From the NCBI RefSeq assembly GCF_014174395.1, contig NZ_JABEQD010000002.1, forward strand, positions 310,001 to 374,000: a stretch of 64,000 nucleotides of DNA. Direction: 5' to 3'. The DNA is from Gluconacetobacter aggeris. GTDB lineage: Bacteria; Pseudomonadota; Alphaproteobacteria; Acetobacterales; Acetobacteraceae. Shown here one piece after another: positions 1,493-54,373 of this stretch. The translations under genes and the position numbers were made by a program. The notes below the pieces were generated by a model. It was given only the letters and a program-made list of their open reading frames with translations, did no database searches and was not told the origin of the DNA. Each line of letters opens with the position of its first letter. Positions within the stretch are counted from its first letter, which is position 1.

Positions 1493-1526
1493 CAAAAACA
1501 AAACATACGCGCAGGCCGCACGGCCT
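1493..1526 (-). terminator. Probable rho-independent terminator after the mannosidase operon
   Basis: On the minus strand, arms AGGCC/GGCCT around GTGC (1513-1526) form a short GC hairpin directly against the TGA stop at 1526-1528. A T-rich run (TTTTGTTTTT) follows about nine bases later. The gap between stem and T-run is longer than ideal, so termination may be partial. Confidence 0.45.
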
Positions 1527-2023
1527 CATTTCTTCGCGACCGGCTCCACCCGATCGAAGACCAGCATCCCGATCACATGCCGCCCATCGTCCGAGGCGAC
1601 GGTCATGACCAGCCGCGCCCGGTCCGCGGACAGCGCCCAGCGCGTCACGACGACACGCGCCGTATCGCCGGTCCTGACCCCGTGCGTGACCACCAGCATC
1701 GGCCCCTCCCGCCGTGCCGCGACGGTGCGCAGCGTGCTGGTCCCCAGCACAGTCCGCTCCGGAAGCGTCACAACGCGGCCATCGGTCGGCAGTTCGAGCG
1801 TCAGATGCTGCACCCGCCCCCGCGCCATCGCGACGATGACATCCGTGATACGCTCCCCCCGGTCGATGATCGTATCCGTCCGCGCCTCCGGCTCCTGAAG
1901 ATCGCGATAATCGCTTTCCCCCTCATCCAGGCGCCATGTTCCCGAAAACCCGGCCGGCTCCCGCCCAAAGGCCGGCAGGCCGAGGCAAGCGGCGAACAGA
2001 ACAATCAGAACGCTCTTCATCAT
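1526..2023 (-). CDS. Small secreted protein, lipocalin-like (FSGTW type)
   Basis: A 165-residue protein starting MMKSVLIVLFAACLGLPAFG, a clear signal peptide, so it is exported. The mature part opens with FSGTWRLDEGESDY, close to the 'F.GTWKL...KSD' opening seen in small secreted beta-rich proteins of unknown role, and is otherwise rich in beta-strand-like alternation. The start at 2023 overlaps the TGA of the upstream mannosidase gene (ATGATG, stop at 2020-2022), implying translational coupling. A longer reading upstream is excluded because it would run through the mannosidase in another frame. Its presence as last gene of the operon suggests a helper or binding role for the hydrolases, but no function can be assigned. 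Confidence 0.8.
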   Translation of the reverse strand: MMKSVLIVLFAACLGLPAFGREPAGFSGTWRLDEGESDYRDLQEPEARTDTIIDRGERITDVIVAMARGRVQHLTLELPTDGRVVTLPERTVLGTSTLRTVAARREGPMLVVTHGVRTGDTARVVVTRWALSADRARLVMTVASDDGRHVIGMLVFDRVEPVAKK

Positions 2024-4218
2024 CGGGCACCCGGCGCCACCCAGGACGCCCCCCACCGGCTGGGCTTCGCTCCCATGACGAAATGCAGGGTGCGGCCATC
2101 CACCATGTCCCGATAGGCCACCATGGGCGATGCCAGCGGCACGCCATCCAGGGTCGCCGACCGGATATAGGGCGCCTCCGCCGCGCCACGGTCCGCCACG
2201 ACGCTGAACACCCGCCCATCCCCCATCCGCAGACGCGCGCGAGAGACCAGGGGCGACCCGATCATGTAGATGCCGGACGCCGGATTCACCGGATAGAACC
2301 CCAGGGCCGAAAACACATACCAGGCCGACATCTGCCCGCAATCATCGTCGCCATCCAGCCCGGACACACGGTCGGCATATTCGGTCCGCATGATCGCGCG
2401 CACCCGCTCCTGCGTCTTCCACGGCTGCCCGACGAAATCGTAGAGATAGGGCACATGATGCGACGGCTCGTTGCTGTGCCAGTTGTAATCGCCGTCGAAA
2501 TAGCGATCCAGCCGCGCGGCCAGGGCATCCCGCCCGCCCATCAGTCCGATCAGCCCGCCGACATCATGCAGCACGTCGAACGTGTAGACCCACTTCCCGC
2601 CCTCGGTCCATCCAACATCCGGCCCCGCCCACGACCCGTCGAGATTGCGCGCCTGCATGAACCGCGTGGCCGGATTGAAGATGGTCCGATAATCCAGCGA
2701 CCGGCGCAGGAAATGTTCATAATCCGCCTGCCTGCCGACCGCCCTGGCCACCTGCGCCACACACCAATCGTCATAGGCATCGTCCAGCGTGCTGGAGGCC
2801 GCCTCCGCCGTGCGGTCGGCCGGTACATAGCCCAGCCGCAGCGCATAACTCAGCCCGCCCCGCGCCTCATACGGCGTGCCCGGCTTGCGGTCGCGCCAGT
2901 CGTTCGTCCCGTCGCCATCGGGCGGCACCGTCGCATCCTTGCGCACCGCCTCCCAGGCCAGGGCCCGGTCGAAGCCCGCAAACCCCTTGCCGATCGCTTC
3001 CGCCACCAGCGAATCCGCATGGGTGCCGATCATGATGTTGGTATAGGACGGGTTGGGCCATTTCGGCATCCAGCCCCCCTGCCGGTAATCCTGCAACAGG
3101 GCCTGGACCATCCCGCCGATGCGCTCGGGCGCCACCAGCGTCAGCAGGCTGAATTCGGCCCGGAACACATCCCAGGTCGCAAAATCGGTATAGCTGTCGC
3201 CCTCATGCACACGGTCGTCGAATGCGCTGTAATAGCGCCCATATTCCGAAAGCGACCTGGGGTAGAGCAGCGCATGGTACAGCGCCGTATAGAAGATATG
3301 CCGCTGCTCCGCGCTCAACCCTTCGACCGCAATCCTGTCCAGCTTCTCCTGCCAGACATCATGCAGCGCCCTGCGGACGGTCTCGAAATCCCACCCCGGA
3401 ATCTCCCGCCGCAGATTGTCCCGCGCCTGCTCCACGCTGATGAAGGAGGTACCCACCCGCACCTCAACGTCATCCGCCCCCGCATCGAAGGTCGCAAACG
3501 CCCCCGTCGGCCGATCCGGCGCCGGCGTGGCCGGATAGGTGCTCATCGTCGCCGGGCGGCTGAACTGAACGACGAAATAGCCCCGAAAATTCGGCAGCTT
3601 CAGCGGGCCGAGATCGGCATCCGAACGGCGCGGATTATACCCCGCGATCTCGCCCTTCGCCTCGTCCACCCGCACACCGCCCGTCACGCCCGCGCGGCTC
3701 GCCTCCACCAGTACCCGCCGCGCCGTCCCGGCGGGAAAGCGGAAGCGGAACAGCGCCGAATGCGCCGCGGCCGTCATCTCGGCACGGATCGCCTGCCCGC
3801 CCGCCCCCATGACGACCCGATAATAATCGGGCCGTGCCACCTCGTCCCGATGGCTGAACGGCAATGCCCGCTCGGCAGGCAGGGTCCGGGCCTCGCCGCT
3901 CTCGGGCATGATCACCACGTCACCATAATCCCCCATCCACAACGCCGCCTGATGGGTGCCGGCAAAGCCGGAAATGGTCCGGTCCTTGTGATAGTAGGAC
4001 AGGCCAGGGTGGCCGCTCTGCCGCGTCTGCGCCACCCAGCCCGTCATGCCGAAGGGCGGCGTCACCACCGGCATGGTGCGCCCATAGCCAATCGGGCCGC
4101 CGCCGGTCCCGATCAGCGGATGCACCACATCGACCAGATCCTCCGCGCAGGCCGCACGCCCCACGACCGATCCGGAAACCAGCAGCAGAACAGCGGCAAG
4201 AACGGCATGGCGCCTCAC
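2020..4218 (-). CDS. GH92 family alpha-mannosidase, secreted
   Basis: A 732-residue glycoside hydrolase family 92 enzyme; the family comprises calcium-dependent exo-alpha-mannosidases acting on mannans and N-glycans. The start is a GTG at 4218 that overlaps the upstream stop (GTGA) and gives MRRHAVLAAVLLLVSGSVVG, a signal peptide; an in-frame ATG at 4263 would place codons inside the upstream gene and spoil the signal. Family motifs are present in order: HPLIGTGG and PPFGM near the N-terminus, ATWDVFRAEFSLL near residue 350, AYDDWCVAQ near 480, YLYDFVGQPWKTQ near 590 and DDDCGQMSAWYVFSALGFYP near 626. Length is typical. The stretch usually written TLEYAYDDW reads TLDDAYDDW, so a key acidic position may be Asp rather than Glu. 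Expected location is periplasm or exterior. Confidence 0.93.
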   Translation of the reverse strand: MRRHAVLAAVLLLVSGSVVGRAACAEDLVDVVHPLIGTGGGPIGYGRTMPVVTPPFGMTGWVAQTRQSGHPGLSYYHKDRTISGFAGTHQAALWMGDYGDVVIMPESGEARTLPAERALPFSHRDEVARPDYYRVVMGAGGQAIRAEMTAAAHSALFRFRFPAGTARRVLVEASRAGVTGGVRVDEAKGEIAGYNPRRSDADLGPLKLPNFRGYFVVQFSRPATMSTYPATPAPDRPTGAFATFDAGADDVEVRVGTSFISVEQARDNLRREIPGWDFETVRRALHDVWQEKLDRIAVEGLSAEQRHIFYTALYHALLYPRSLSEYGRYYSAFDDRVHEGDSYTDFATWDVFRAEFSLLTLVAPERIGGMVQALLQDYRQGGWMPKWPNPSYTNIMIGTHADSLVAEAIGKGFAGFDRALAWEAVRKDATVPPDGDGTNDWRDRKPGTPYEARGGLSYALRLGYVPADRTAEAASSTLDDAYDDWCVAQVARAVGRQADYEHFLRRSLDYRTIFNPATRFMQARNLDGSWAGPDVGWTEGGKWVYTFDVLHDVGGLIGLMGGRDALAARLDRYFDGDYNWHSNEPSHHVPYLYDFVGQPWKTQERVRAIMRTEYADRVSGLDGDDDCGQMSAWYVFSALGFYPVNPASGIYMIGSPLVSRARLRMGDGRVFSVVADRGAAEAPYIRSATLDGVPLASPMVAYRDMVDGRTLHFVMGAKPSRWGASWVAPGAR

Positions 4219-6494
4219 GGTGACGACACCCCCAGCAGACGGGTAAAGGTCGCAAGCGGACACACAGCCCCGCCCCCACAGCCCGGCACGGCCAGATAGG
4301 CCATATCCGGCGGATCGCGCTCATCCCCCGCCCGCTGCCGGCCGGGCGTCTGCGACTGGAACATCACTTGCACAACCGGATGCCCGCCCCGCGCATCCGT
4401 CAGCAGGGCAAAGCCCAGCGCACTGCCCACCGGCACATCATCCATCGCATAGCCCGGCGCATGCACATGCAGCCCAAGCTGCGCCAGCAGCGGCACGATC
4501 GTGCTGTCATGCCCCAGCCATACCGCCACAGCCGGGCCGTCGGCACGGGTCAGGCCCGCCACGATCGCCGGGCGCAGCTTCTGGCTGAGCACCGGCGCCA
4601 GCGCCGGCAATCCCGTCATCACATGCAGCATCGCCGCATGCAGTCCGGACAGGCCGGCAAAATCCTCATCGCGCACGGCCCCCCACGCGGCCGAAGCAGC
4701 AGACCGGCCGGACAAGGAGCCCAGCATGATCGCCTCCGCCGCCGACGACGCCGGCAGCAACGATCCCGAAAGGGTCAGATGCCGACCCGACGCATCGACA
4801 TCCAGCACCGCCGGCGCCCCGTCATCGACGCAAAGCGCCCCCCGCCCAGGACAGCCCATCAGCCGCCGCAGCACCGCAAGCCCCTCGCGCGGCGGCCCCG
4901 CCAGCAACCCGGCGGCGGCGGCTTCTGCCCGCAGGCGCGGCAGCAGCGCCCGCACATCCACCTGGCCGGCAGCCGCTTCAACCGGCGCGAACATCCCATC
5001 CGGCACACCGATCGGCTCATGACGCACCGCAACCGGGCAACCCGGCGCCAGGCCCATGGCAAACGCCTCGGCACTGGCCACCGTCCGCCGGCTGGAATTC
5101 GCCCGCAGCCGCAGCGCATCGGGCGCCGGGCAGCCGCCGGCCGCAAATCCCGGCACGTCATTGCCCGCCAGCAGCACCCGCTCCCACGCCCCCAGCAGGC
5201 GCATCTGCGCCGCCCCCTCCGGCGTCAGGTCGCCCGGAATCCCCGTCCACACCGGCCATGCGTGATCGACCAGCGCGCGCGACGGCACCTGATCGGCCAG
5301 CGGCGAGCGCAGGCCATGCCGCACCACCAGCACCAGCCGGCGCAGGCGCAGCGCGTCGGCCGCACGCGGCGCGATCGCCGCATCCCGGCAGGATGCCGGC
5401 GCGGTCACCGGGTTGCAGCGCGCCGCCAGCCCGGTCCCGAACCCCACGCGATAGCCCGTCCAGCGCGCCGGCTCGAAATCCGGGTAATCGGTGCTGACAA
5501 GCTGGGCACCGCTGGCCAGCGCCGCATCGCGCCGCGCCGGGTCGCCGCTGCGCCCTTCCCGCGTATCCGCATCGGCGCGCGTCCGCACCAGCATGTGCCG
5601 GCGCACCAGTGCCGCAATCGCCTCCGGCGGCCCGTCATTCAGCTCGGTGAAGGCCGCATCCTCGGCATCGGGCGGCGCATTGGTAAACGCAACCCGCCCG
5701 CGCAGCCCCGGATGATCCTTCAGATACAGGTCACGATTCGACCGCTGATCCAGCAGAAAAATCACCTTCCCCCGCGCGGCATCCACACCCGGCCAGCCAC
5801 GCGCCGCAACGGCGTTCCGCAGGCTCGCCGCCTCACCCCGCACCCGGTCGGGCGTCAGCAATTCCCCCGGCGCGAAGACGGAACGGATCTCCCCGTCCAG
5901 CGCATCGAAGCTCCGGGCGGTAAAATGCTCGGGCTCGGTCAGCGGCGGCCGCGATCCCTGTTCGATCTCCAGCAGCACGAACAGCGGCAGATGCCCCGGA
6001 TGCGCCCGCGACCACGCCCGTATCTGCCCCAGACAGGCCAGCAGCGGCTGGCAGGTCGCCCGCTGATCGATATCGGGGATATGCATCACCTTGAAGCCGG
6101 GGCGCCGCATGACGGCCCCATCGCCCGTCTCGGCGGGCGGCAACCCCGCCTCCGCCAGCCAGCGCGCCGATTGCGGATGCGCGAACCGCCCGCCCACACT
6201 GTCCGCATAGACATCCAGCTCGATCTGCCGGATTCCCCGGTCGAACTGCGCCGGCAGGTCCGCATGCGCATAGTCCAGCCCCTGCGCCGCTTTCGGGTCC
6301 CGCCGCGCCAGCAGCGCCGCGATCTGGGGCGCCAGCCCGGCATGATAGCTGTTATGCGACCCGATCACCTGGATCTGGTCCAGCCGCACTCCCTCCGCCG
6401 CCCCGGATGCCGGCGCCACCACCGGCATCAGCAGCAGCGCCAGCAAACACCCCCCCGCCACGCACCCGGCGCGACGGGGGAACCGGACGGCCAT
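4215..6494 (-). CDS. Fusion: Ca2+-dependent PI-phospholipase C-like domain + histidine acid phosphatase (phytase-like)
   Basis: A 759-residue secreted two-domain enzyme. After a signal peptide (residues 1-33) comes a PI-PLC-C1-like domain: IGSHNSYH at 44-51, RGIRQIELDVYAD, then VMHIPDID and a closing VSTDYPDFEP near 330. This is the pattern of calcium-dependent phosphoinositide phospholipase C-like proteins. From about residue 380 a histidine acid phosphatase begins: RHGLRSP near 392, the Arg/Thr helix SSRRTVASAEAFAMGLAPGC, and the proton-donor motif GHDSTI near 661, as in AppA-type phytases and glucose-1-phosphatases. Predicted joint action is release of a phospho-inositol head group followed by its dephosphorylation. 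Start ATG at 6494 overlaps the receptor stop (TGATG); its own stop overlaps the mannosidase GTG. Each domain is clear; the substrate is inferred. Confidence 0.9.
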   Translation of the reverse strand: MAVRFPRRAGCVAGGCLLALLLMPVVAPASGAAEGVRLDQIQVIGSHNSYHAGLAPQIAALLARRDPKAAQGLDYAHADLPAQFDRGIRQIELDVYADSVGGRFAHPQSARWLAEAGLPPAETGDGAVMRRPGFKVMHIPDIDQRATCQPLLACLGQIRAWSRAHPGHLPLFVLLEIEQGSRPPLTEPEHFTARSFDALDGEIRSVFAPGELLTPDRVRGEAASLRNAVAARGWPGVDAARGKVIFLLDQRSNRDLYLKDHPGLRGRVAFTNAPPDAEDAAFTELNDGPPEAIAALVRRHMLVRTRADADTREGRSGDPARRDAALASGAQLVSTDYPDFEPARWTGYRVGFGTGLAARCNPVTAPASCRDAAIAPRAADALRLRRLVLVVRHGLRSPLADQVPSRALVDHAWPVWTGIPGDLTPEGAAQMRLLGAWERVLLAGNDVPGFAAGGCPAPDALRLRANSSRRTVASAEAFAMGLAPGCPVAVRHEPIGVPDGMFAPVEAAAGQVDVRALLPRLRAEAAAAGLLAGPPREGLAVLRRLMGCPGRGALCVDDGAPAVLDVDASGRHLTLSGSLLPASSAAEAIMLGSLSGRSAASAAWGAVRDEDFAGLSGLHAAMLHVMTGLPALAPVLSQKLRPAIVAGLTRADGPAVAVWLGHDSTIVPLLAQLGLHVHAPGYAMDDVPVGSALGFALLTDARGGHPVVQVMFQSQTPGRQRAGDERDPPDMAYLAVPGCGGGAVCPLATFTRLLGVSSP

Positions 6495-9265
6495 CAGAAC
6501 TGGCCCATCAGCGACAGGCGGAAATTCCGCCCCAGGATCGGCCGCGCCAGGAATACATTCTGCCCCGCCTGCGAACTCAGCACCTCGCCCGCACGCGGAT
6601 TGCCCTCCGTCAGGCCAAGCGAGTCGTTGAGGTTCTGACCGGAGAGATTGAAGGTCAGATAAGGCGTGATCGCATAGGTCGCACCGAAGTTGATCACCGT
6701 ATAGGCCGGCAGGCGCTGGGTATTGGCCACATCGGCATAGCGCAGCCCGTAATGCTCGATATCGGCCTGCAACAGCAGCCTGCCGTCCAGCAGATGCAGG
6801 CGCGGCGTCACGCGAAACATCACCGGCGGCGTCCGCAGCAGATGGTTGCCGGTATAATCCAGCAGATTGGGCGACCCGTTGCTCAGCACCAGATAGCGCA
6901 TCTTGCCGAACCGCGCATTCTGCGCGGTGCCGGAGAACACCACGTCGACATACTTGCCGGGGCGGATCGTCCCCTCGAATTCCAGCCCGTACGTATGGGT
7001 GGTCGCCGTGATCGCCTGCTGGTTGTACGACCCCGTCTTCACGTCGAAGACCAGATTGTTGATCCCGTAGCTCGGATAGTCGGTATTGAACCCGGTCAGG
7101 AAAAGATCCGCATAGCGCGACTGATATTTCACGCCGCCTTCATACATGAAGATCTTCTGCGTGATCGGCACCGCCACCGGATTGGTGATGAAAGACGCCA
7201 GGCTGGGCAGGCGATAGGCACGCGTGAAGCGGGCAAAGAACCCGAGATTGGGCTGAAGCTGGTAATTCACGCCGATCGTGCCGCCGAACCCGGCGAAACT
7301 GGCATGATAGGGCGTATAGACCCCGTTACCCGACAGCATGTTTGACAGGTAAGGCGCCGCACCCGCCACCACACTGTGGCTACCTTCCACCAGGCCGCTG
7401 GTCCGCTGCGCCTCATAGCGCACGCCGGCATCCACCCGCAGCTTCTTCGTGATGGCCCATTCATCCGTCGCATAGCCCGCAACGTCGGTATCGTCGCCAT
7501 GCCCGTTGGCAAATTCGGTGCCGTAACGGGTATAGCCGTTCTGGGTGATCGACCCCACGACATTGCCCGCCGCATCCACGGCATCGATATTCAGGCGCTG
7601 GGCATGCGACGTGGTGTCCAGCAGCATGTTGGCCGAATAGCGCGTGAAATCCTCGTTGAAATACGTAACGAACGCCCCCATCGCCACATCATGATGGCCG
7701 AGGAACGAGAAGGATTTCTCCAGCTTGAAGTCGTTCATGACCTCATGCTCGTTCATCCACACCGCGCGCAGCGAGGCATCCGTCACATAATTGTTGCCCG
7801 TCACCGCCGAGGTGAATTGCTGGCTCGGATCATTCAGGTAACGCAATTGCCAGCCGGTAGCGCCGGCGAACATCGACCCGGCACTGGCCAGCCCGGCCAG
7901 ACGCGCGCCGGCCTGCGTCACCGCGCTGGGCGACAGCACGGTCCAGGTCGCATTCATCGCGCGATAACGGAACGTGTCGGACAGATGCCACCCGTCCGCC
8001 AGATCATGCCTGAAACCGGCCGTCACCTGATGGAGGTTGATATGGATGCCGCTCTGCAGGTCGATATGCTTCGTGCTGCCGCCAGGACCTGGCAGATACG
8101 CATTCTCCAGCGCCGAAGACGAATAACTGCCGGTATTGGCATCGAACCCGGGAAGCGACGTGATGTTGCCCGACTTGTCATACGTCACCGGAATGTCGGG
8201 AAAGAACGTGGTCCGGTCGTCCATGTGCTTGTAATCGACGAAGACGCTGCCGCCATGGCTGAAATCGCGACTGATATTGGCGCGGATCTGCCCGCCCGAA
8301 TTGGCGCGGAAACCGGGGTCGCGCACGCCGTTCTCCACCCGGTAGAACCCGCCCAGGCTCCAGCGCCAGGCACCGGCCGGTCCACCCAGCCAGGCATCGG
8401 TGCGGTACAGCCCGTCATCGCCGAACGTCTGCTTGGCCAGCCCCGACAGCTTGCTGGTCCCCCGCCGCGACAGGAAATTGACCAGCCCGCCCGGCGCATT
8501 CTGCGCGACGATCGAGCTCGGCCCGCCACGCACCACCTGGATCTGCTTCATCGTCTCGTCGATACGAAACGAATCATCGGCGTTCAGATACCCCAGAGCC
8601 GGGTCCGACTGGATCGGCAACCCGTCTTCCTCAAGCTGGACCGATCCATACCCATCCACCGGAATACCGCGCGCCCGGATATTGGCACCCACTTCACCGC
8701 CCGAGGCCTCGACCCAGAAACCGGGCGTATTCTTCAGCGCCTCGGACACCGAAGACGTCCCCCGCACACGCAGATCTTCCTGCGAAATGGTGGTGATCGC
8801 GTAGCTGGCATCGATCTTCCGCTGCTTCCTGGTCGACGCACGGCCGGTCACGATCACGGCCTCGCCTTCCCGCAGCGATGCCGGCGTGGCCGAGGCCCGC
8901 GCGGCGCGTTGCAGCAGCCACACCCCATCCGCCTTCGACCGTACCGAAATCCCGGTGCCCCTGAGCATGTCGTCGAGCGCCTGCTCCGGCGTCTTTCTGC
9001 CTTGTACGGTGCCGGAGCGGACATTTTCCACATCATGCCCATCCACCGCCACATGCACGCCCGACTGGCGGCTGAACTGCGTCAGGGCAGAAGCAAGCGA
9101 CTGCGCCGGGATGGAAAAATCCCTCTCGGCGGATGATTGCGCAACGGCCGCGGAAGGCAGCACCAGCGGCAGCGTGGCCATGGAGGCCATGGCCAGGCCA
9201 AAGACATGGAAGGGAGGGAAAGCGGCACCGAACACAGGTCGAGGGCGCGGGTTCTTTCTTTTCAC
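6494..9265 (-). CDS. TonB-dependent transducer with N-terminal STN signalling domain (FecA-like)
   Basis: A 923-residue outer-membrane receptor. Residues 1-42 form a long signal peptide ending AAVAQ. Residues about 48-120 form the STN (secretin/TonB N-terminal) domain (FSIPAQSLASALTQFSRQSG, then TPEQALDDMLRGTGI) that contacts a periplasmic anti-sigma factor. A TonB box-like EAVIVTGRA, a plug (NIRARGIPVDGYGSVQLEEDG, IQVVRGGPSSIVAQNAPGG) and a 22-strand-type barrel follow, ending in aromatic LSLMGQF as expected for BAM insertion. GTG at 9265 is the start; the nearby ATG at 9285 is out of frame. With the sigma and FecR genes just upstream it forms a FecIRA-like cell-surface signalling unit. The hydrolase genes that follow by overlap suggest it imports or senses their product. 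Confidence 0.95.
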   Translation of the reverse strand: MKRKNPRPRPVFGAAFPPFHVFGLAMASMATLPLVLPSAAVAQSSAERDFSIPAQSLASALTQFSRQSGVHVAVDGHDVENVRSGTVQGRKTPEQALDDMLRGTGISVRSKADGVWLLQRAARASATPASLREGEAVIVTGRASTRKQRKIDASYAITTISQEDLRVRGTSSVSEALKNTPGFWVEASGGEVGANIRARGIPVDGYGSVQLEEDGLPIQSDPALGYLNADDSFRIDETMKQIQVVRGGPSSIVAQNAPGGLVNFLSRRGTSKLSGLAKQTFGDDGLYRTDAWLGGPAGAWRWSLGGFYRVENGVRDPGFRANSGGQIRANISRDFSHGGSVFVDYKHMDDRTTFFPDIPVTYDKSGNITSLPGFDANTGSYSSSALENAYLPGPGGSTKHIDLQSGIHINLHQVTAGFRHDLADGWHLSDTFRYRAMNATWTVLSPSAVTQAGARLAGLASAGSMFAGATGWQLRYLNDPSQQFTSAVTGNNYVTDASLRAVWMNEHEVMNDFKLEKSFSFLGHHDVAMGAFVTYFNEDFTRYSANMLLDTTSHAQRLNIDAVDAAGNVVGSITQNGYTRYGTEFANGHGDDTDVAGYATDEWAITKKLRVDAGVRYEAQRTSGLVEGSHSVVAGAAPYLSNMLSGNGVYTPYHASFAGFGGTIGVNYQLQPNLGFFARFTRAYRLPSLASFITNPVAVPITQKIFMYEGGVKYQSRYADLFLTGFNTDYPSYGINNLVFDVKTGSYNQQAITATTHTYGLEFEGTIRPGKYVDVVFSGTAQNARFGKMRYLVLSNGSPNLLDYTGNHLLRTPPVMFRVTPRLHLLDGRLLLQADIEHYGLRYADVANTQRLPAYTVINFGATYAITPYLTFNLSGQNLNDSLGLTEGNPRAGEVLSSQAGQNVFLARPILGRNFRLSLMGQF

Positions 9266-9326
9266 AGGATCTATCCGGGCTTTTCATGGTGGATGGAGGA
9301 CACCAGTGAGTTGCCCCACGCCCCGA

Positions 9327-9332
9327 ATTTCC
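9327..9332 (-). promoter_or_regulatory. Candidate ECF (FecI-type) -35 element GGAAAT before the receptor
   Basis: On the minus strand GGAAAT, the -35 hexamer recognised by FecI-like sigma factors, occurs 62 bp before the receptor start in the gap between fecR and the receptor, where the regulated promoter is normally found. A convincing -10 element at the usual 16-18 bp spacing was not found, so this is a weak call. Confidence 0.25.
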
Positions 9333-9476
9333 GTCTCCCGTTTTCGTGAAAGTTAAATGACAACCGGAATGGATCGGAACCTGCCCGTGCCCGCAGGGCC
9401 GCACCCGCCATGTGTTTCCGAGCCCCGGAGCGGAGCAACCCAACGCGCCCGTCCAGGCCGGATCTCAGACAGGATC

Positions 9477-10442
9477 TCAGAAAATATCCAGCCGCCGTGC
9501 CGACGCCACATAATCGACATGCAGCACGCCCCGCGCCACCCGCGCGAACGTGTCGGGATCATCGAGCGCGAACGAGCCCATCAGCACGCGCCCGCCCGCC
9601 TGGCCATGCACCATCAGCTTCTTCGCGTTATACCGGTTGAAGATCGCGGCGGCGTCGCCAAGCGTTTCGCCCTGCAATTCCACCACGCCGCGTTCCCAGT
9701 TGGTGGCCCGTGCCAGCTCGTCCGCCGTCAGGCCACGCAGCCGGGGGGGCGATCCCGCCCCCATGGTCAGGCAATCCCCGGCCCGCAGCGTGAACCGCTC
9801 CCCGGTCCCCTGCCGGATCGCCACGGCACTGCCCGAAAGCAGCAGCCCGGTCGTCCGGTCCCCCGCAATCGCGACCTGCACCCGCCCGACCGAACGAAAT
9901 GTCAGGCTCCCGGCATCCAGTCGCGCCACCCGCCGGCTCGACAGCACACAGCGCCCATCCAGCAGCCGCGCAGCCGCCCCCCCCACCAGCAGGCCGGAAA
10001 AGCAGTCGAGCCGCACCGTCCCGCCCGCCATCTCGATCGAGCGCGGCGCCGCGTCCCGCACGCTGTAGAATCGCCCCATTTCCCGCGACGGCGCCGGCCA
10101 TGCGCCAAGCGCCAGACCCGCCGCCGAGGCCACCATCGCCCGGCGCGACAGGCTCCGCGCCCGCGCGGGCAAGGGGTGCAGGGCGGCAAATGCTTCCGGG
10201 GGGCGAACGGCCAGGGACGCACCGGCCCCGGCACCCGGCCTCAGCGCCGCCGCGCGTTCCGTCGCCTGCCACACCACCTGCGCCCGGATCATCGCGCCAC
10301 GATGGCGGAGATCGGCGCCCAGCCAGCGGTCCAGCTCCCCCTGTTCCCCGGCGGTCAGCGCGGCACGGTCCATCCGCGCCACCCAGTCCGCGGCGATGCT
10401 CTCAGGCGTTGGATTTTCCCGTCCGCAGGTCACCGGGCCCAT
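9477..10442 (-). CDS. FecR-family anti-sigma factor
   Basis: A protein of about 321 residues starting at ATG 10442 (MGPVTCGRENPTPE); a GTG nine bases further on is an alternative. The N-terminal cytoplasmic part carries the FecR signature SIAADWVARMDRAALTAGEQ. One membrane segment (AMVASAAGLALGAWP) lies near residue 135. The periplasmic part carries the FecR domain (GGTVRLDCFSGLLVG through VQVAIAGDRTTGLLLSGSAV) and the C-terminal NWERGVVELQGETLGDAAAI motif that binds the receptor STN domain. It should hold the sigma factor inactive until the ligand-loaded receptor signals. It overlaps the sigma gene by 41 bases, implying coupled synthesis. Confidence 0.93.
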   Translation of the reverse strand: MGPVTCGRENPTPESIAADWVARMDRAALTAGEQGELDRWLGADLRHRGAMIRAQVVWQATERAAALRPGAGAGASLAVRPPEAFAALHPLPARARSLSRRAMVASAAGLALGAWPAPSREMGRFYSVRDAAPRSIEMAGGTVRLDCFSGLLVGGAAARLLDGRCVLSSRRVARLDAGSLTFRSVGRVQVAIAGDRTTGLLLSGSAVAIRQGTGERFTLRAGDCLTMGAGSPPRLRGLTADELARATNWERGVVELQGETLGDAAAIFNRYNAKKLMVHGQAGGRVLMGSFALDDPDTFARVARGVLHVDYVASARRLDIF

Positions 10443-11010
10443 GCCCGCCGCCCTGCGCCGGAAGATCCCGGCCGGCATAGGCCATGCCGATGATCCTGAG
10501 CGCCCTGGCAAGCTGCTTTTCGACCACATTCTCCGAAACATTCAGGTGAAGCGCACATTCGCGTTGTGAATATCCATAAAAGCGGCGCAACACGAACACG
10601 TCCCGGCACCGGTCCGGCAGGTCACGCGCGACCTGGTCGAGAAAACGCAGTTCCTGCCGCGCGGTCACCGACCGTTCGACCGCCTGCCCCTGGTCGGGAA
10701 TCTCCGCGCCCGAAAAATCGGTCAGGGAATCGAACGAGACGATCCGTGCCTTGCGATAGTGTTGAAGAACCAGATTGCGCGCCACAGCAAAAAACCATGC
10801 ACGCGGAAATCTGATGGACGCATGGTCGGCTTCGGCAAGCTCCACCCAGGCCTGCTGGATGATATCGTCGCTCTCGATCCCCGAAAAACGCCGCAGCCAG
10901 CTCCGCACATCCCCCTCATGCGGAAGAATATGGGTCGCCAGCCAATGATTTCGCTCTTCCGGAAGCAATGGACCACATCCAGTCGCACAAGGACGGCGCG
11001 TCGATAGCAT
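10402..11010 (-). CDS. ECF sigma factor, FecI-like
   Basis: An extracytoplasmic-function RNA polymerase sigma factor of about 202 residues. Region 2 is seen as DIIQQAWVELAEADHASIRFP...AWFFAVARNLVLQHYRK, and region 4 as LPDRCRDVFVLRRFYGYSQRECALHLNVSENVVEKQLARAL, the FecI arrangement. The start is uncertain: ATG 11010 (MLSTRRPCAT) gives a normal length, while in-frame ATGs further upstream add about a dozen or more residues of unusual composition. It is first gene of the FecIR-receptor unit and should direct transcription of the receptor-hydrolase operon. It is divergent from the MFS exporter, with about 100 bases between their starts. Confidence 0.92.
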   Translation of the reverse strand: MLSTRRPCATGCGPLLPEERNHWLATHILPHEGDVRSWLRRFSGIESDDIIQQAWVELAEADHASIRFPRAWFFAVARNLVLQHYRKARIVSFDSLTDFSGAEIPDQGQAVERSVTARQELRFLDQVARDLPDRCRDVFVLRRFYGYSQRECALHLNVSENVVEKQLARALRIIGMAYAGRDLPAQGGGHGPGDLRTGKSNA

Positions 11011-11110
11011 GCGGTCCCGGCGAGAAATGTGATAAACTCGTGACATCCATAGCCGCCCCGCCGCGCGCCGCGGCATGGAAGTCGCCCCTGTGGCGCGTTA
11101 TGATCGGACC

Positions 11111-12493
11111 ATGCCGATCCTGCCCTATATCGTCGCCGCCACCTTCTTCATGGAGTATCTCGACTCCACCATCATCGCCACGGCCCTGCCGGCGATGGCG
11201 CGCAGCTTCCATGTCGGCCCCAACGAACTCAGCCTGGGCATGACGGCCTATATGCTCACCCTGGCGGTCTTCATCCCCGTCAGCGGCTGGATGGCCGACC
11301 GTTTCGGCTCGCGCACCATCTTCGCTACCGCCGTGTCCATCTTCACCGCCGCCTCGATCCTGTGCGGCTTCGCCGGCAGCGTGAACATGTTCATCGCCGC
11401 CCGGGTGCTCCAGGGGCTGGGTGGCGCGATGATGGTGCCGGTCGGGCGTTTCATCGTCATGCGCAATACCGAGACCAGCCGCATGATCCAGGCGGTCTCG
11501 ACCATCACCTGGCCGGCGGTGGCGGCCCCGGTGGTCGGTCCCACGATCGGTGGCATGATCGTGACCTTCACAAGCTGGCGCTGGATCTTTTTCATCAACC
11601 TGCCGCTGGGCCTGGCGGTGCTGGGCGTCATCTTCGCCGTGGTGCCGCAACAGTTCGGCGAACGCCGCCCGCTGGACTGGGGCGGCTTCGTGCTGGGCGG
11701 CCTGGCGCTGACATCCATCCTGCTGGGCACGGAGCTGGCCAGCAACACCCGGGCCAGCCTCACCCTGGCCGCCCTGCTGTTCGGCGGCGGCCTGCTGCTG
11801 GCCATCGCCACCCTGCGCCACGCGGCGGCCAGCACCCACCCGCTGCTCGATTTCGGGCTGTTGCGCCACCCCACCTTCAGCGTCACCATGGCGGCCGGCA
11901 CGCTCTCGCGCCTGACGATCGACGCCATCCCCTATCTGGTGCCGCTGCTGTTCCAGATCGGCTTCGGCCTCACCGCCTTCCATGCCGGGTCGCTGATGCT
12001 GGCCTTCGCGCTGGGCAATCTGGGTATGAAGATGTTCACCACCCGCATCCTCCAGCGCTTCGGCTTCCGCGCCACGGCCGCCGTCAACGCGGCATTGGGG
12101 GCGCTGTTCGTGCTGCTGGCGAGCACCATGGTGCCCGCCACCCCGGTCACCATGCTGCTGCTGGTGCTGCTGGGCTGCGGCATCACGCGCTCGATGCAGT
12201 ACACGCTGCTGGCCACGCTGGGCTTCGCCGATATCGGCGCCCAGGAAAAGGGTGCGGCCAGCACGCTCCTCAGCGTCAACCAGCAGATGTGCATCGGCAT
12301 GGGCGTCGCCTTCGCCGCCCTCACCCTGCGCCTGATCGCCACCCTGCGCGGCGAACACCCAGCGACCGACGCCTTCACCCAGACCGACTTCCACTGGGCC
12401 TTCCTGGTCGCCGCAATCCCCCTGATCCTGTCGATCCCCGGCTACCTGCGCCTCGACCGCACCGCCGGCGCCGCCCTCCGCCAGGCATCCTGA
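11111..12493 (+). CDS. MFS drug/solute exporter, DHA2 (EmrB/QacA-like)
   Basis: A 460-residue inner-membrane proton-driven exporter. The start at ATG 11111 opens directly into the first membrane segment (PILPYIVAATFFMEYLDSTI), whose DST...ATALP motif is typical of DHA2 members. Motif A is GWMADRFGSRTIF and motif C-like glycines follow in TWPAVAAPVVGPTIGGMIV. Thirteen to fourteen hydrophobic segments are visible. No adjacent membrane-fusion protein or regulator is present, so the substrate is unknown. It lies back to back with the sigma factor and converges on hslU. Confidence 0.9.
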   Translation: MPILPYIVAATFFMEYLDSTIIATALPAMARSFHVGPNELSLGMTAYMLTLAVFIPVSGWMADRFGSRTIFATAVSIFTAASILCGFAGSVNMFIAARVLQGLGGAMMVPVGRFIVMRNTETSRMIQAVSTITWPAVAAPVVGPTIGGMIVTFTSWRWIFFINLPLGLAVLGVIFAVVPQQFGERRPLDWGGFVLGGLALTSILLGTELASNTRASLTLAALLFGGGLLLAIATLRHAAASTHPLLDFGLLRHPTFSVTMAAGTLSRLTIDAIPYLVPLLFQIGFGLTAFHAGSLMLAFALGNLGMKMFTTRILQRFGFRATAAVNAALGALFVLLASTMVPATPVTMLLLVLLGCGITRSMQYTLLATLGFADIGAQEKGAASTLLSVNQQMCIGMGVAFAALTLRLIATLRGEHPATDAFTQTDFHWAFLVAAIPLILSIPGYLRLDRTAGAALRQAS

Positions 12494-48909: not shown

Positions 48910-50072
48910 CGCCACCCTCGCAGCACCAGCACCGCCAGGCCGCCCAGCAGCACGGCGGTCACGCCCCGTCCTAGCCAGCCCATCCGGACCGCGCCACCGA
49001 CGGGCAGCGGACTGCCGACCACCACCCCGACCGCCACCGGCAGCACCAGCATCGGTGCGGCATCGCACAGCGCAACCAGCGTCAGCACCAGCCCCCCGAA
49101 CGGCAGAAACGGCGAATGGACCAAGGGCGCAAGGCTCCCATCCCACGGCCCATGCCGGTCGGGCCCCGCCTGCCGCGCCAGCGGCCCCATCAGCGCGACC
49201 GACAGCAGCAGCGCCACCAACCCCGCCAGACCGGCACCATCACCCGCTCCGGCCGCTACCGCCGCCAGGCCGATCATCAACCCGACCGACAGCCGGCCCC
49301 GCCGCTCCGGGGGCGCCACGCGGATGGAAAGCGCCATCAGCCACAGCGTCACCAGCCCCAGCGCCATCACCCCCATCCGGTCCTGGCCCTGCGCCAGATG
49401 ACGCAGCACCGGGATCGCGGTCATGACCGGCGCCAGGGCCATGGGCGCCACCGCATCCCCGGCCGCCAGCACGACCGGGGCGGCAGGCCCCAGCCCCGCG
49501 ACAGTCCCCAGCCCGACCGTCAGCAACAGCCCCCCCAGCCCCTCCAGCCGTCCCGCCGCGTCGGACGCCGCCAGCAGCGCGGCACCGGGCACGGCCAGCA
49601 GGATGCCGGACAGGCTGAGGCGAAAAAGATCCCACCCCGCCCGTGCCGCGCCACGCGTCACGGCGGTCGCCAGCGCCACCAGCATCGCCACCCCGCCAAC
49701 CGCGACCGCGCCCGACAGCGGATCGGCGCAGGCGGTGGCAACGGCCGCGCCACCGGCCAGCCCATGCATCAGCACGCCCGCCCCCCGCCGTCCCGGCGCC
49801 ATGTCGGCCGACAGACAGGCCAGGAACAGCGCCAGCAGCGGCAGCGGCAGCAGAAGTCCCAACGCGCCGGGCGGCGCGGCAAAGGGCGTCCCCGGCCAGA
49901 CGCTCCGCAACGCCACCGCCAGGGCAGCCAGCCCCAGCCCGACCGCCGACAGCCCCACCCCCGCCGCGCGCGCCGAGGCCGGCGAGCAGGCCGCCAGCAC
50001 CCCCATCGACAGGAACGGCCAGCACAGCGCCAGCGGCATCAGCACCGGCAGCGAAACAGGCGGAATGCTCAC
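48906..50072 (-). CDS. Hyf-like proton-channel subunit (HyfF/NuoN-like, shortened)
   Basis: A 388-residue polytopic membrane protein. GTG 50072 overlaps the upstream stop (GTGA). More than ten hydrophobic segments, with LTVGLGTVAGLGPAAPVVLAAGDAV matching the 'fG.kaGl.P.h.WLp.Ah' region of antiporter-like subunits. Several charged positions of proton-pumping relatives are replaced by small residues in my reading. It is shorter than typical HyfF (about 526), so it may have lost terminal helices. Confidence 0.75.
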   Translation of the reverse strand: MSIPPVSLPVLMPLALCWPFLSMGVLAACSPASARAAGVGLSAVGLGLAALAVALRSVWPGTPFAAPPGALGLLLPLPLLALFLACLSADMAPGRRGAGVLMHGLAGGAAVATACADPLSGAVAVGGVAMLVALATAVTRGAARAGWDLFRLSLSGILLAVPGAALLAASDAAGRLEGLGGLLLTVGLGTVAGLGPAAPVVLAAGDAVAPMALAPVMTAIPVLRHLAQGQDRMGVMALGLVTLWLMALSIRVAPPERRGRLSVGLMIGLAAVAAGAGDGAGLAGLVALLLSVALMGPLARQAGPDRHGPWDGSLAPLVHSPFLPFGGLVLTLVALCDAAPMLVLPVAVGVVVGSPLPVGGAVRMGWLGRGVTAVLLGGLAVLVLRGWR

Positions 50073-50623
50073 GTCAACTCCCGCCCCCAGGCGATCCGGC
50101 GCAGGCAGACAAAGGCCACCACCAGCAGCGCCGCCTGCAATGCCACAGCCCCCGCCAGCACCGCGCCCCGCCCGGCCAGGCCGGCGAGCAGCATCAATCC
50201 GTTCAGGGCCGCCGCCAGCCCCGCGCACTGCCCCACCACCGAACGGCGGACCGCGGCAGCCAGCACACCGCACAGAATGGCCACCAGCGCCGCAATCAGG
50301 TCCGGCCGCGTCACGACGTCGATCAGGCCGCGCGGCACCGCCAGAACCGCCAGGATCGTCAGCATCAGGCCACCGCCCACTCCTGATATCCGCTCCGCCG
50401 GCACCGGCGGCCGATCCTCCAGCCGCGCCAGCCCCCAGACCAGCGGCGCCGTCCCCGCCACCACGAACAGGGCCGCCAGACAGGGACGCACCGGTGCCTC
50501 GACATCCAGCGCCGCCGCCAGCAATGTCAGCACCACCAGCCCGGCCTGCCAGGGCAACGCCCAGCGCAGGCCCGACAGCACGACCGAGGCGGCAATCAGC
50601 AGGCCGGGAAGCGGCGACCCCAT
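50069..50623 (-). CDS. Hyf-like HyfE/NuoK-type membrane subunit
   Basis: A 184-residue membrane protein of five or six helices (LLIASVV-type start, AGLVVLTLLAAALDV, CLAALFVVAGTAPLVWGLA, GGLMLTILAVLAVPRGL, AVALQAALLVVAFVCL). The order and size match HyfE. AGGAGG lies seven bases before ATG 50623, supporting that start inside the end of the previous gene (TGA overlap). Similarity is at topology level only. Confidence 0.72.
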   Translation of the reverse strand: MGSPLPGLLIAASVVLSGLRWALPWQAGLVVLTLLAAALDVEAPVRPCLAALFVVAGTAPLVWGLARLEDRPPVPAERISGVGGGLMLTILAVLAVPRGLIDVVTRPDLIAALVAILCGVLAAAVRRSVVGQCAGLAAALNGLMLLAGLAGRGAVLAGAVALQAALLVVAFVCLRRIAWGRELT

Positions 50624-51576
50624 CACGCGACCTCCTGATCCGCGAACAGCACCACGACCGCCAGCGCCGCGAACAGCAGCGCCAGCACCAGCCGGCCGCG
50701 CACCGCGCGCGCCGAGCCCATCACGACCACCCGCGCGGCGACGATGCCGGCACAGATCCCCCCCGTCCGCGCCAGCCACGCCACGACGGCGCCGGGCAGC
50801 GACGCGGCCGCCGGCAACTGCGCCCCGGCCTCCGGCATCGCCAGCCCACCCGGCCAGGCCAGATCCCCCGCCAGCGTAACCCAGGCGATCAGCCCCAGAT
50901 CCCGCGCCAGTTCCATGGCAGCACGGCCGCGTCCGCCCAGATCGACCATCATGTCCGCCGCGCGCGCCTCATCGCCGGGGCCGATATCCGGCCCGGCCAG
51001 CAGCAGGGCGACGGCCAGCAACATCGCCGACACCCGCCCGCCCCCCGGATCGGGGTCGCGCAGCCGCCCCAGCAGGGCATCGATCCCCCCATGCCCGGTC
51101 GCCATGACCGCCGCCGCCACCGCCAGCGGAAAGACCGCCTGCATCGCCGCCAGGGCGCCCACACCTCCGGCCGACGCCAATCCGGCCCGTGCGCCGCCCG
51201 GCGCCAACGCCGCCAGCAATGGCAGCAGGCGCGCCAGGACCAGCAGCCCCGAGACCGTCAGCAGGTCCGAAAGCCCGCCTCCCGGCAGACCGAGCACGAA
51301 GGACGGCACCAGCGCACAGGCGGCCAGCGCGGTTGCCAGCGCCATCGCCGGCGCAATCTCGGCCACGCCGGCAGCGCGCACCCCATGCCGGCGCGCGCAG
51401 GACCGGATCAGCCGCCAGCGCGTCAGCACCGGGACACGCTCGGCACCGCCCGCCCAGGCCATGCCGGCCGCCAGCAGCCCCCGTGCCAGCGGCGCACAGG
51501 CGACCATCAGCACCAGATGCACCGCCAGCAGCACGCATCCCACGATCCCTGCCGACATCATCGCCCACGACACCAT
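50623..51576 (-). CDS. Hyf-like HyfC/NuoH-type membrane subunit
   Basis: A 317-residue polytopic protein. It begins MVSWAMMSAGIVGCVLLAVH, and near the middle has DLLTVSGLLVLARLLPLLAAL. A cytoplasmic loop with GPDIGPGDEARAADMMVDLGGRGRAAMELARDL corresponds to the conserved E-rich quinone-site loop of NuoH/HyfC. ATG 51576 overlaps the HyfB-like stop by one base (TGATG). Length matches HyfC (about 320). Confidence 0.8.
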   Translation of the reverse strand: MVSWAMMSAGIVGCVLLAVHLVLMVACAPLARGLLAAGMAWAGGAERVPVLTRWRLIRSCARRHGVRAAGVAEIAPAMALATALAACALVPSFVLGLPGGGLSDLLTVSGLLVLARLLPLLAALAPGGARAGLASAGGVGALAAMQAVFPLAVAAAVMATGHGGIDALLGRLRDPDPGGGRVSAMLLAVALLLAGPDIGPGDEARAADMMVDLGGRGRAAMELARDLGLIAWVTLAGDLAWPGGLAMPEAGAQLPAAASLPGAVVAWLARTGGICAGIVAARVVVMGSARAVRGRLVLALLFAALAVVVLFADQEVA

Positions 51577-53345
51577 CACGAATGGCCCCACATCCGGACC
51601 AGCGCCGCCACGGCCAGCCACAGCAGCACCAGCCCCATGGCATGGCGCGACGCCCAGGCCACGCCCCCCTCCGTCACCGCCAGCATGCGGCGACCCGCAT
51701 TCCGTACCCGGCGCGCCATCCGCCATGCGAGGCGCCGCAAAGGTACCCCTCCCCCCAGGCCCCACGCCAGCGCACCGGCAAACTGCGCCGGCCCGGCCTG
51801 CGCCGCCGGCTCGCCGAACGGCATCCAGGGCGGCGAAGGGGGAGCCCCCTCGGTCCAGGCCGCCACCGGGCGCGACGCCACCGTGCCGGCCAGACGCGAC
51901 AATGCCAGCACCCCGGCTCCCGCCAGCCCCAACAGCGCCACAATGCCGATCGGATACAGCACCCCGCCGCCACCCGGCGCCGCCAGAGCCAGCCAGTCCG
52001 GCCGCGCACCCGACGGAATCGTCCCGCGCAGGCCGGCAATGTCCCACCCCGCGCCGCGCGTCAGCCACAGCCAGATTCCGGGCACGAGCACCATGACCGC
52101 ACTCCCCCCCAGGCACGCGGCCGGTGCCGCCAGCCTTCCCGTCGCGGGGTCGGTCGCCCCGGCAGCACGCGGCGTGCGCGGCCGGCCCAGGACCAGGCAG
52201 GATAACAGGCGCACCGCCGCCAGGATCAACAGCCCGCATACCAGCCCGACCCCGGCCAGCGATGCCAGCAGCGGCATCGCGCCGGCCAATCCTTCGGCAC
52301 GCGGCAGCGCCAGCAACGACTGTACCAGCAGCCACGCCACCGCAAACCCGCCCGACGGCGGCAGGGCGCACACCCCGGCCAGCGCCAGGGCCAGCATGCC
52401 CGACGTCCTCGGCATCAGGGCCGCCAGCCCCCCGGCGCGCATCAGCCCCAGCGAACCCGCCGCCTCGGCAATCCGCGCCAAGGTCAGGATCGCGGCCAGA
52501 AACGCCAACCCGACCCCACCCATCAGCAGCATCAGGGCACGGAACGCCCCCAGCGCCAGCAAGGGCAGGTCATCCGCCCGCCCGGTCACCACCAGCCCGA
52601 CCAGCAGCAGCGCCAGGCCACCCCAGCCCCCCAGCATGCCGGCCATCACACGGCCCGCATCGCGCGCGCCCAGGGCGCGTCCACACGCCACCAGCGCCAA
52701 CATCAACCCCACAGCGACCAGCGCGCCTCCCCAGAAGGCGCCGACCGCTCCCCCAGGCCAGTCAACCAGCATGCGCACGGCAAGGCAGAGCCCGGCCACC
52801 ATTCCCGCCAGATGCGCGACCCCGACAGGCGCGCCATGCCGCGCGCCAGACAGCGGCCGCAGCGACAGCCCCATCAGCGCCGCGGCCGCCACCAGTGCCG
52901 GAACCGGCAGCACGATCAGCCGCCAGCCGCCCGACCCCGCCAGCAGGGCGGTCGCCACCGCCACCCCGACACTCCCCCAGCCCACCACGGCACGCGGCAC
53001 GGCACCCCGGCTCCGCAGAAGCGGCAACAAGGCCGCAGCGCCGATCGCAAACAGAAGGGGATTGCCGGTGCCCACCGTCAGCGCCGCGCCGGCCAGCACC
53101 GGCGTCCGCTCGCCCGAGGCCAGGCCGGCCACCGACAGGATCAGCACGAACGGCAAGGACAGCGCATCGACGCGCAACAGGGCCATCGCCCCCGCTTCCG
53201 GAACCGTCGCCGGGCCCGGAGGCAGGACGGCCATCGCCAGTGCCAGCACAAGGGCCAGCCCCCACCCCGCGCGGGCCGCCTGCGGCACCGCGAACCGGGG
53301 CATCAGGCCGTCCAGCAGCAGCACCGACAACACAAGCACAAGCAT
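51576..53345 (-). CDS. Hyf-like HyfB/NuoL-type antiporter subunit
   Basis: A 589-residue protein with about fourteen membrane segments, first gene of a six-gene operon. ALALAGVCALPPSGGFAVAWLL matches the conserved 'LalaGlPP.nGF.seWl' of antiporter-like subunits. The stretch usually written H.FFKALLF reads GAFRALML, so the discontinuous-helix Lys is Arg and the His is absent. Loss of such residues would weaken proton pumping. No HyfA, HyfD or ferredoxin-like HyfH/NuoI gene is present in the cluster. Confidence 0.8.
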   Translation of the reverse strand: MLVLVLSVLLLDGLMPRFAVPQAARAGWGLALVLALAMAVLPPGPATVPEAGAMALLRVDALSLPFVLILSVAGLASGERTPVLAGAALTVGTGNPLLFAIGAAALLPLLRSRGAVPRAVVGWGSVGVAVATALLAGSGGWRLIVLPVPALVAAAALMGLSLRPLSGARHGAPVGVAHLAGMVAGLCLAVRMLVDWPGGAVGAFWGGALVAVGLMLALVACGRALGARDAGRVMAGMLGGWGGLALLLVGLVVTGRADDLPLLALGAFRALMLLMGGVGLAFLAAILTLARIAEAAGSLGLMRAGGLAALMPRTSGMLALALAGVCALPPSGGFAVAWLLVQSLLALPRAEGLAGAMPLLASLAGVGLVCGLLILAAVRLLSCLVLGRPRTPRAAGATDPATGRLAAPAACLGGSAVMVLVPGIWLWLTRGAGWDIAGLRGTIPSGARPDWLALAAPGGGGVLYPIGIVALLGLAGAGVLALSRLAGTVASRPVAAWTEGAPPSPPWMPFGEPAAQAGPAQFAGALAWGLGGGVPLRRLAWRMARRVRNAGRRMLAVTEGGVAWASRHAMGLVLLWLAVAALVRMWGHS

Positions 53346-53415
53346 GAGAAACAGCGGCAGGATGGCCCCATCCCCGAATCACGGGTCCGATCGAACCGCC
53401 ATCAAACCACGCCGC

Positions 53416-54270
53416 TCAGATCATGGCGAGGGGGACCTTGCGTCGCGGCGGCGGGATCGACCGGTCGATCGCCGCCAGATCCTCCGATGTCAGCACCAGC
53501 TCGGCGGCCGCCACGTTCTCGCGCTGGTGCTGCGGGCTGCCCGCCTTGGGAATTGCCAGCATGCCCGGCTGCCGCAGCACCCAGGCCAGCGCCACCTGGG
53601 CGGGCGTCGCCGGCCCCAGGCTGGTCTCGTGCCGACCCGCGATCCGCTTCAGTACCGGCTGGTGCAGCAGGTCCCCGCCCTGTCCCAGCGGGGAATAGGC
53701 CATGGTCACGATCGACCGGCGCCGGTCCGCCTCCAGCAGATCGAATTCCACCCCGCGATAATCCAGGCTGTAGAGGATCTGGTTGGCCGCACAGGGATCG
53801 GGCGAGGCGACGCGCGCCAGCTCATCCAGATCCCCGACATCGAAATTCGATACGCCCCAAGCACCGATCAGCCCTTCCCGCTTCAGCCGCTCGAAGGCCC
53901 CGATCGTCTCGCCCAGCGGCACGGCCCCCCGCCAGTGCAACAGGTACAGATCGATCCGATCGGTGCCCAGCCGCCGAAGCGACGCCCGGCAACTGGTCGC
54001 CACCCCGGCGCGCGAGGCATTGGACGGCAGCACCTTCGTGACAAGAAAGACCTCATCCCGCCGGCCGGCGATCGCCTCGCCCACCAGCCGCTCCGACCGC
54101 CCGCCCCCGTACGTCTCGGCGGTATCGACCACCCGCAACCCCAGATCCAGGCCCAGCCGCAGGCTGGCGATCTCCTGCATCCGGCGCTCGGCACTGTCGC
54201 CCAGCGCCCAGGTCCCCATGCCCAGCGCCGGCACGCGCACACCCCCCGGAAACATGACGGAATTGACCAT
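53416..54270 (-). CDS. Aldo/keto reductase
   Basis: A 284-residue NADPH-dependent oxidoreductase with an (alpha/beta)8 barrel. The catalytic tetrad is visible: Asp and Tyr in VVDTAETYGGGRSE, Lys in FLVTKVLPSNAS and His in YLLHWRG. NADPH-binding AIPKAGSPQHQREN near the C-terminus replaces the usual IPKS. The preferred substrate cannot be stated; sugar or ketone reduction is likely. ATG 54270 gives the family N-terminus. Confidence 0.94.
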   Translation of the reverse strand: MVNSVMFPGGVRVPALGMGTWALGDSAERRMQEIASLRLGLDLGLRVVDTAETYGGGRSERLVGEAIAGRRDEVFLVTKVLPSNASRAGVATSCRASLRRLGTDRIDLYLLHWRGAVPLGETIGAFERLKREGLIGAWGVSNFDVGDLDELARVASPDPCAANQILYSLDYRGVEFDLLEADRRRSIVTMAYSPLGQGGDLLHQPVLKRIAGRHETSLGPATPAQVALAWVLRQPGMLAIPKAGSPQHQRENVAAAELVLTSEDLAAIDRSIPPPRRKVPLAMI

Positions 54271-54334
54271 GCCGCGCGGTCCTCCTCACAGATTCTGTGC
54301 TGCCATGCGCGAAAGCCACCCTCAAAGTCCGACC

Positions 54335-54367
54335 GCGCGTCGGATCGCCACCGGCGCGCATCTGCGG
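54335..54367. repeat. Dispersed intergenic palindromic repeat, copy C
   Basis: A 33-bp element (GCGCGTCGGATCGCCACC-GGCGCGCATCTGCGG) starting seven bases past the holC stop, upstream of the aldo/keto reductase gene. It is the closest match to copies A (12564) and B (43748) and keeps the same orientation relative to the preceding stop codon. Confidence 0.6.
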
Positions 54368-54373
54368 TCAGGC

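Follow-up and report, generated by a model that had tools for sequence, protein, structure and literature searches.

An operon with a fused PLC-HAP gene

The window analysed here is a stretch of 64,000 nucleotides from Gluconacetobacter aggeris. On its minus strand lie, in gene order, the genes for a FecI-like ECF sigma factor (10402..11076), a FecR-like anti-sigma regulator (DUF4880; 9477..10541), a TonB-dependent receptor (TBDR) with an STN signalling domain (6494..9265), a 759-aa protein that joins a phospholipase C (PLC) domain to a histidine acid phosphatase (HAP) domain (4215..6494), a secreted GH92 alpha-mannosidase (2020..4263; translation probably begins at a GTG at 4218) and a 165-aa small secreted protein (1526..2023). 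The sigma factor, FecR-like protein, receptor and mannosidase were assigned with Pfam and NCBIfam. The 165-aa protein, encoded by the last gene of the operon, has no Pfam match and is conserved in the related loci L002-L006, where the operon order is conserved as well. The genes are tightly packed: the TBDR stop and the fusion start share 1 nt (TGATG), the fusion stop and the likely GH92 start share 4 nt (GTGA), and the GH92 stop overlaps the start of the small secreted protein gene (ATGA). A phosphoesterase gene and a TonB-dependent transporter thus lie together, as in phosphate-utilisation systems, and this pairing is kept in relatives. Pfam found no SusD-like gene among the six other genes scanned, and only STN, Plug and barrel domains in the TBDR.

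The fusion gene has an ATG start, and the one continuous frame of 759 codons reported in a preliminary description of this DNA proved exact on the minus strand. Direct reading of the sequence revealed a single signal-peptide-like stretch at the N terminus (residues ~1-33, 6396..6494, minus strand) and none at the PLC/HAP junction, in agreement with the single signal peptide claimed earlier. The n-region cysteines of this stretch are not conserved in the alignment of fused proteins, and we therefore do not infer a lipobox. Each motif quoted in the preliminary description (IGSHNSYH, ELDV, VSTDY, RHGLRSP and GHDST) was found in the protein.

A frameshift or assembly artefact joining two genes was ruled out because 15 other fused proteins, from eight genera of Acetobacteraceae, have an uninterrupted frame as well (14 loci from other genomes, L002-L014 and L024, plus L058 from the same family). 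Chance motif matches were excluded by profile, fold and residue tests. We found no published description of a PLC-HAP fusion in the full texts of an open-access library, and the protein is absent from an mBio paper (PMC6355987). As far as we found, both the fusion and its link to a mannosidase are undescribed. The locus is real, conserved and functionally coherent, with a domain architecture that is new as far as we searched.

A PI-PLC domain joined to a histidine acid phosphatase domain

Domain searches assigned both Pfam families to the protein, PF16670 and PF00328, and thus two domains rather than one. PF16670 (PI-PLC-C1) matches with 402 bits against a cut-off of 29.9, over the whole model (positions 1-329). 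The Ca2+-dependent PI-PLC domain spans residues 36-362 (5409..6389, minus strand), as delimited by PF16670, alignments, a structural model and a fold match. Residues H47, N48, E92, D94, H138 and E176 are the same in all aligned fused proteins and in all 51 sequences of a PLC alignment. We take them to be the HN, ExD, H and E catalytic and Ca2+-binding set, with roles assigned from what is known of PLC-delta1.

A model of the full-length fusion reached a pTM of 0.59 with low confidence in the PLC half. We therefore modelled the PLC domain separately with the 51 sequences, which gave a pLDDT of 95 and placed the catalytic/Ca2+ residues where successive strands of the barrel end. Superposition with Foldseek was poor (rmsd ~7), that with VIA-align good: the model matched 5FYP with a Z score of 25.8 (rmsd 2.6, 247 residues aligned) and 3H4W with a Z score of 24.2, followed by eukaryotic PLCs near Z 17. 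The structure prediction thus agrees with solved Ca2+-dependent PI-PLCs at Z 24-26 and, for the HAP half, with the phytase 4ARU (see below). The solved bacterial enzymes of Pseudomonas (5FYO/5FYP/5FYR) and Streptomyces antibioticus (3H4W/3H4X) share the fold and the HN/ExD/H/E residues with the fusion, but they are stand-alone proteins with only ~20-24% identity to its PLC domain. By domain, catalytic residues and barrel fold, the N-terminal half is predicted to be a Ca2+-dependent PI-PLC.

The HAP domain covers residues 380-755 (4230..5357, minus strand), with evidence from Pfam, NCBIfam, PDB and alignments. PF00328 (His_Phos_2) matches residues 384-495 with 56 bits (cut-off 23.6), and two NCBIfam models show that the half is full length (Agp, residues 372-754; AppA, residues 372-753). 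The PDB phytase 4ARU aligns with residues 380-755 (E 4e-31), and the predicted fold matches it with a TM score of 0.78 by target (E 5e-26). In the fused proteins, R392, H393, R396, R470, H662 and D663 are invariant and provide the RHGxRxP, distal Arg and HD motifs; the proline of RHGxRxP is an alanine in some relatives.

The preliminary description had read the motifs of this half as the pattern of AppA-like phytases. Fold and motifs agree with this, but the pocket does not. The domain reaches neither the AppA equivalog NF007552 (102 bits versus a cut-off of 585) nor the Agp equivalog NF007553 (118 bits versus 425). Aligned with the E. coli proteins, the window HAP reads RHGLRSPLA and ANSSRRTVAS, Agp reads RHNLRAPLA and ANSLQRTVAT, and AppA reads RHGVRAPTK and ADVDERTRKT. 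After RHGxRxP, LA thus replaces the TK of AppA, and the fused relatives also lack the T-K pair. Judged by these residues, the pocket is closer to that of the glucose-1-phosphatase Agp than to that of the phytase AppA, and a small sugar or cyclitol (inositol) monophosphate is therefore a likelier substrate than phytate. Agp and AppA share the HAP fold and the RHGxRxP and HD motifs with the fusion, which has pocket residues like those of Agp; both E. coli enzymes stand alone and are ~24-27% identical in structural alignments, whereas the window HAP is fused behind a PLC.

Two mannosidase contexts and unfused counterparts

At 96% identity, Gluconacetobacter asukensis and G. tumulicola are the closest relatives. 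Of 249 Acetobacteraceae genomes sampled, 15 contained PF16670, and 7 of these 15 showed a frame of fused size. A tree of 51 PLC domains united the fused proteins in one clade (100/99) with two subclades, one of them of the window type. Most simply, then, the fusion arose once.

The second context of the fusion occurs in six genera: in three Gluconobacter loci, Acidomonas, a second copy in G. sacchari, Novacetimonas, Brytella and Acetobacter. Here the fusion follows a TonB receptor, of the TIGR01782 type in Acidomonas, and we found no FecI or FecR gene beside this receptor. A Gfo/Idh/MocA oxidoreductase, for which IolG is the best equivalog but below cut-off, lies close to the fusion. A divergent cluster encodes a GH76 alpha-mannanase, the sugar-binding protein and permeases of an ABC sugar importer, a ROK kinase and an IolE-like protein (144 bits versus a cut-off of 290). 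Further along the Acidomonas locus come a MalK-like ATPase and a ROK-type repressor, both named by eye.

The fusion thus adjoins GH92 in the Gluconacetobacter subclade and GH76 in the sister clade, and the two alpha-mannosidase families are not homologous. That two sister clades should adjoin two unrelated alpha-mannosidase families by coincidence is unlikely, which suggests a mannosylated substrate. Among PDB entries, the GH76 protein matches CtGH76 best, and GPI-core glycans are recognised by CtGH76 (PMC12295086). The fungal Dfg5-type enzymes described with CtGH76 remodel the fungus's own wall, and the window locus has GH92 instead of GH76. Swaminathania and genome G192 carry the receptor and the fusion with neither glycosidase. 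Conversely, contig 56 of genome G189 keeps the GH76/ABC/IolE-like/ROK cluster without a PLC-HAP gene, and the GH76 and PLC modules are thus separable. This contig also encodes a different TonB receptor and a 533-aa protein that resembles, by eye, a carbohydrate porin.

The two halves also occur unfused. A tblastn search revealed two Novosphingobium plasmids (L081 and L082) on which they are separate adjacent genes behind a TBDR. On the first plasmid, the receptor gene ends at 8881 and is followed by a 381-aa PLC (8881-10026) and a 404-aa HAP (10028-11242). The second has the same layout, with a HAP gene of 394 aa. These genes were defined by simple ORF calling and BLAST, and the PLC of the second plasmid by its tblastn match. 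Both enzymes and the gene order behind the TonB receptor are as in the fusion, but in two genes rather than one; we found no annotation or study of this triplet. Because PLC and HAP are separate yet adjacent in Novosphingobium, the fusion probably joined an existing operon pair. That the two are fused in one lineage and adjacent in another indicates that their functions are coupled.

Elsewhere, receptor and PLC genes form a pair in Sphingomonas and are divergently oriented in Zymomonas; the Zymomonas genes, a stand-alone PI-PLC gene and a divergent TonB receptor, lie at 3284-7098 of the small plasmid pZZM405 of Z. mobilis ZM4, an alcohol producer that is tractable in the laboratory. Most stand-alone PLCs of Acetobacteraceae that we examined adjoin TBDRs. 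At three Acetobacteraceae loci (L051, L056 and L057), stand-alone PI-PLC genes occur in tandem, with a TonB receptor of a third type alongside at two of these loci.

Could the locus serve the use of yeast phosphomannan? GH92 would then uncap Man-P-Man side chains, the HAP domain would dephosphorylate mannose-6-phosphate and the PLC domain would free GPI-anchored mannoprotein. Members of GH92 and GH76 act on yeast mannan, acetic acid bacteria and yeasts have niches in common, and the Agp-like pocket would suit a sugar phosphatase. However, this explanation gives the PLC-HAP pair no role in Novosphingobium, which has no mannosidase beside it, and we consider it quite improbable.

The related HAP gene of an N. 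capsulatum plasmid (L085) lies between a TonB receptor and iolE, iolD, iolC and iolG. This neighbourhood ties the HAP type to inositol use, and the plasmid region is likely an inositol-phosphate utilisation locus. Classical myo-inositol catabolism was considered for the window species and rejected: its genome gave no IolE match and no IolD match above cut-off. The window host would thus use inositol otherwise, for instance by the periplasmic oxidation typical of acetic acid bacteria, or its gain would be phosphate and sugar.

Regulation and the candidate substrate

The promoter of the TBDR contains a PHO-box-like site, TTGTCATTTAACTTTCAC (9346..9363, minus strand), that is kept in relatives. 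The search matrix was derived from nine PHO-box-like sites that precede pstS-type genes in the same family. The site had the top score of the 64-kb window (16.8 versus 10.8 for the runner-up) yet stayed below most pstS sites (14.8-29.8 in leave-one-out scoring). Upstream of PLC units, such sites occurred in 8 of 17 cases at p<0.05, computed on shuffles, versus 6 of the 54 gaps that served as controls (Fisher p 0.003). Five of the nine fused contexts tested lack the site; with this, and with a window site weaker than most pstS sites, PhoB control can only be proposed. Just downstream lies GGAAAT-N17-TC (9308..9332, minus strand), which resembles a FecI-type promoter. With two exact occurrences in the window, this motif is not significant alone. 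Taken together, operon transcription appears, from these motifs and genes, to be driven by ECF sigma/FecR with the PHO-box-like site, partly for phosphate scavenging.

A FecI-type promoter-like motif, an ECF sigma factor, a FecR protein and an STN-type receptor would also fit uptake of ferric phytate, in which the FecIR-controlled receptor imports phytate-bound iron and the HAP domain, acting as a phytase, frees iron and phosphate. The closeness of the HAP fold to phytases speaks for this possibility, but the phytase T-K pair is missing from the pocket, an intact PLC domain and a mannosidase are left unexplained, and the TIGR01782-type receptor of the GH76 context lacks neighbouring FecI/FecR genes. 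We regard it as highly improbable.

The sequential release and dephosphorylation of a phospho-inositol put forward in the preliminary description gains support from the complete domains, their catalytic residues, the PLC fold and the split Novosphingobium genes. We hold, with slightly more confidence than doubt, that the fusion is a two-step enzyme in a TonB/alpha-mannosidase uptake locus that scavenges phosphate and glycan, with mannosylated inositol phospholipids as likely targets. Its parts differ in strength: from sequence, we are fairly confident that the chemistry of both domains is as proposed, and the chances that the target is a mannosylated inositol phospholipid are about even. Several findings count against the overall reading: the absence of IolE and above-cut-off IolD matches from the window genome, the sub-threshold scores of the IolE-like and IolG-like genes in the GH76 context, the GH76 cluster that occurs without a PLC, and the PHO-box-like sites, which five fused contexts lack and which in the window score lower than most pstS sites.

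In the mechanism that we infer (the two activities and the sequence in which they act, a glycolipid as target, control by PhoB and the cell location of the fusion alike), the fusion would be a secreted or periplasmic bifunctional protein. The PLC domain would cut phosphatidylinositol (PI) or glycosylated PI into lipid and inositol-1-phosphate, possibly via a cyclic intermediate, and the HAP domain would then take off the phosphate to yield inositol (or glycosyl-inositol) and Pi. The alpha-mannosidase, GH92 in the window and GH76 in other genera, would trim mannose, and the TonB receptor would import the substrate or the products. Likely targets would be fungal GPI anchors, mannosyl-inositol-phosphoceramide or actinobacterial PI-mannosides. 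A stricter version, in which acetic acid bacteria have a locus dedicated to mannosylated inositol phospholipids that performs demannosylation, phosphodiester cleavage, dephosphorylation and then glycosyl-inositol uptake, we put forward tentatively and with more doubt than belief. To our knowledge, no bacterial locus for the use of such lipids has been described.

The described system closest to the window locus is PUSI of Flavobacterium johnsoniae (Fjoh_4168-4173), in which a PF16670 PLC and a metallophosphatase lie beside SusCD and which is induced by low phosphate (PMC8115612). The two have in common a PF16670 PI-PLC, a gene of a phosphatase superfamily and a TonB-dependent transporter. PUSI, which belongs to Bacteroidota, differs in its separate genes, in a PF00149 metallophosphatase in place of the HAP, in SusCD in place of a single TBDR and in that no alpha-mannosidase has been reported for it. 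The PhoB regulon of Caulobacter also counts TBDRs, a phytase and a phospholipase C among its members (PMC11208175). The window locus would work in a similar way to both, but is set apart by its covalently joined enzymes, its type of phosphatase (HAP), the control of a single receptor by ECF/FecR and the alpha-mannosidase.

Another explanation is plain phosphorus scavenging from ordinary PI or glycerophosphoinositol of decaying plant or yeast membranes, with the mannosidase as an unrelated passenger that shares the receptor and the promoter. PUSI is a precedent, reported with phosphoesterases rather than CAZymes (PMC8115612). The PHO-box-like sites point the same way, as do the glycosidase-free TBDR-PLC or TBDR-PLC-HAP units of Sphingomonas, Zymomonas, Novosphingobium, Swaminathania and G192. 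A passenger mannosidase is hard to reconcile, however, with two sister fusion clades beside two non-homologous alpha-mannosidase families and with a likely GH92 start that overlaps the fusion stop, and we judge this explanation unlikely.

If the two-step use of mannosylated inositol phospholipids is true, the fusion would be a natural two-step enzyme for gaining both inositol and phosphate from inositol lipids. It would also point to a food source, so far unrecognised, of the acetic acid bacteria that live with yeasts on fruit, on flowers and in vinegar. Feeding on GPI or mannosyl-inositol lipids would be testable with one operon, and the protein might serve as a tool to release and dephosphorylate GPI-type anchors. 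The idea of phosphate-utilisation systems would then reach from Bacteroidota to Alphaproteobacteria.

Elsewhere in the window, the plus strand contains a 1748-aa open frame (49423-54669) without a Pfam match at E 1e-5; it may be spurious, a product of high GC content, or may encode an unusual protein.
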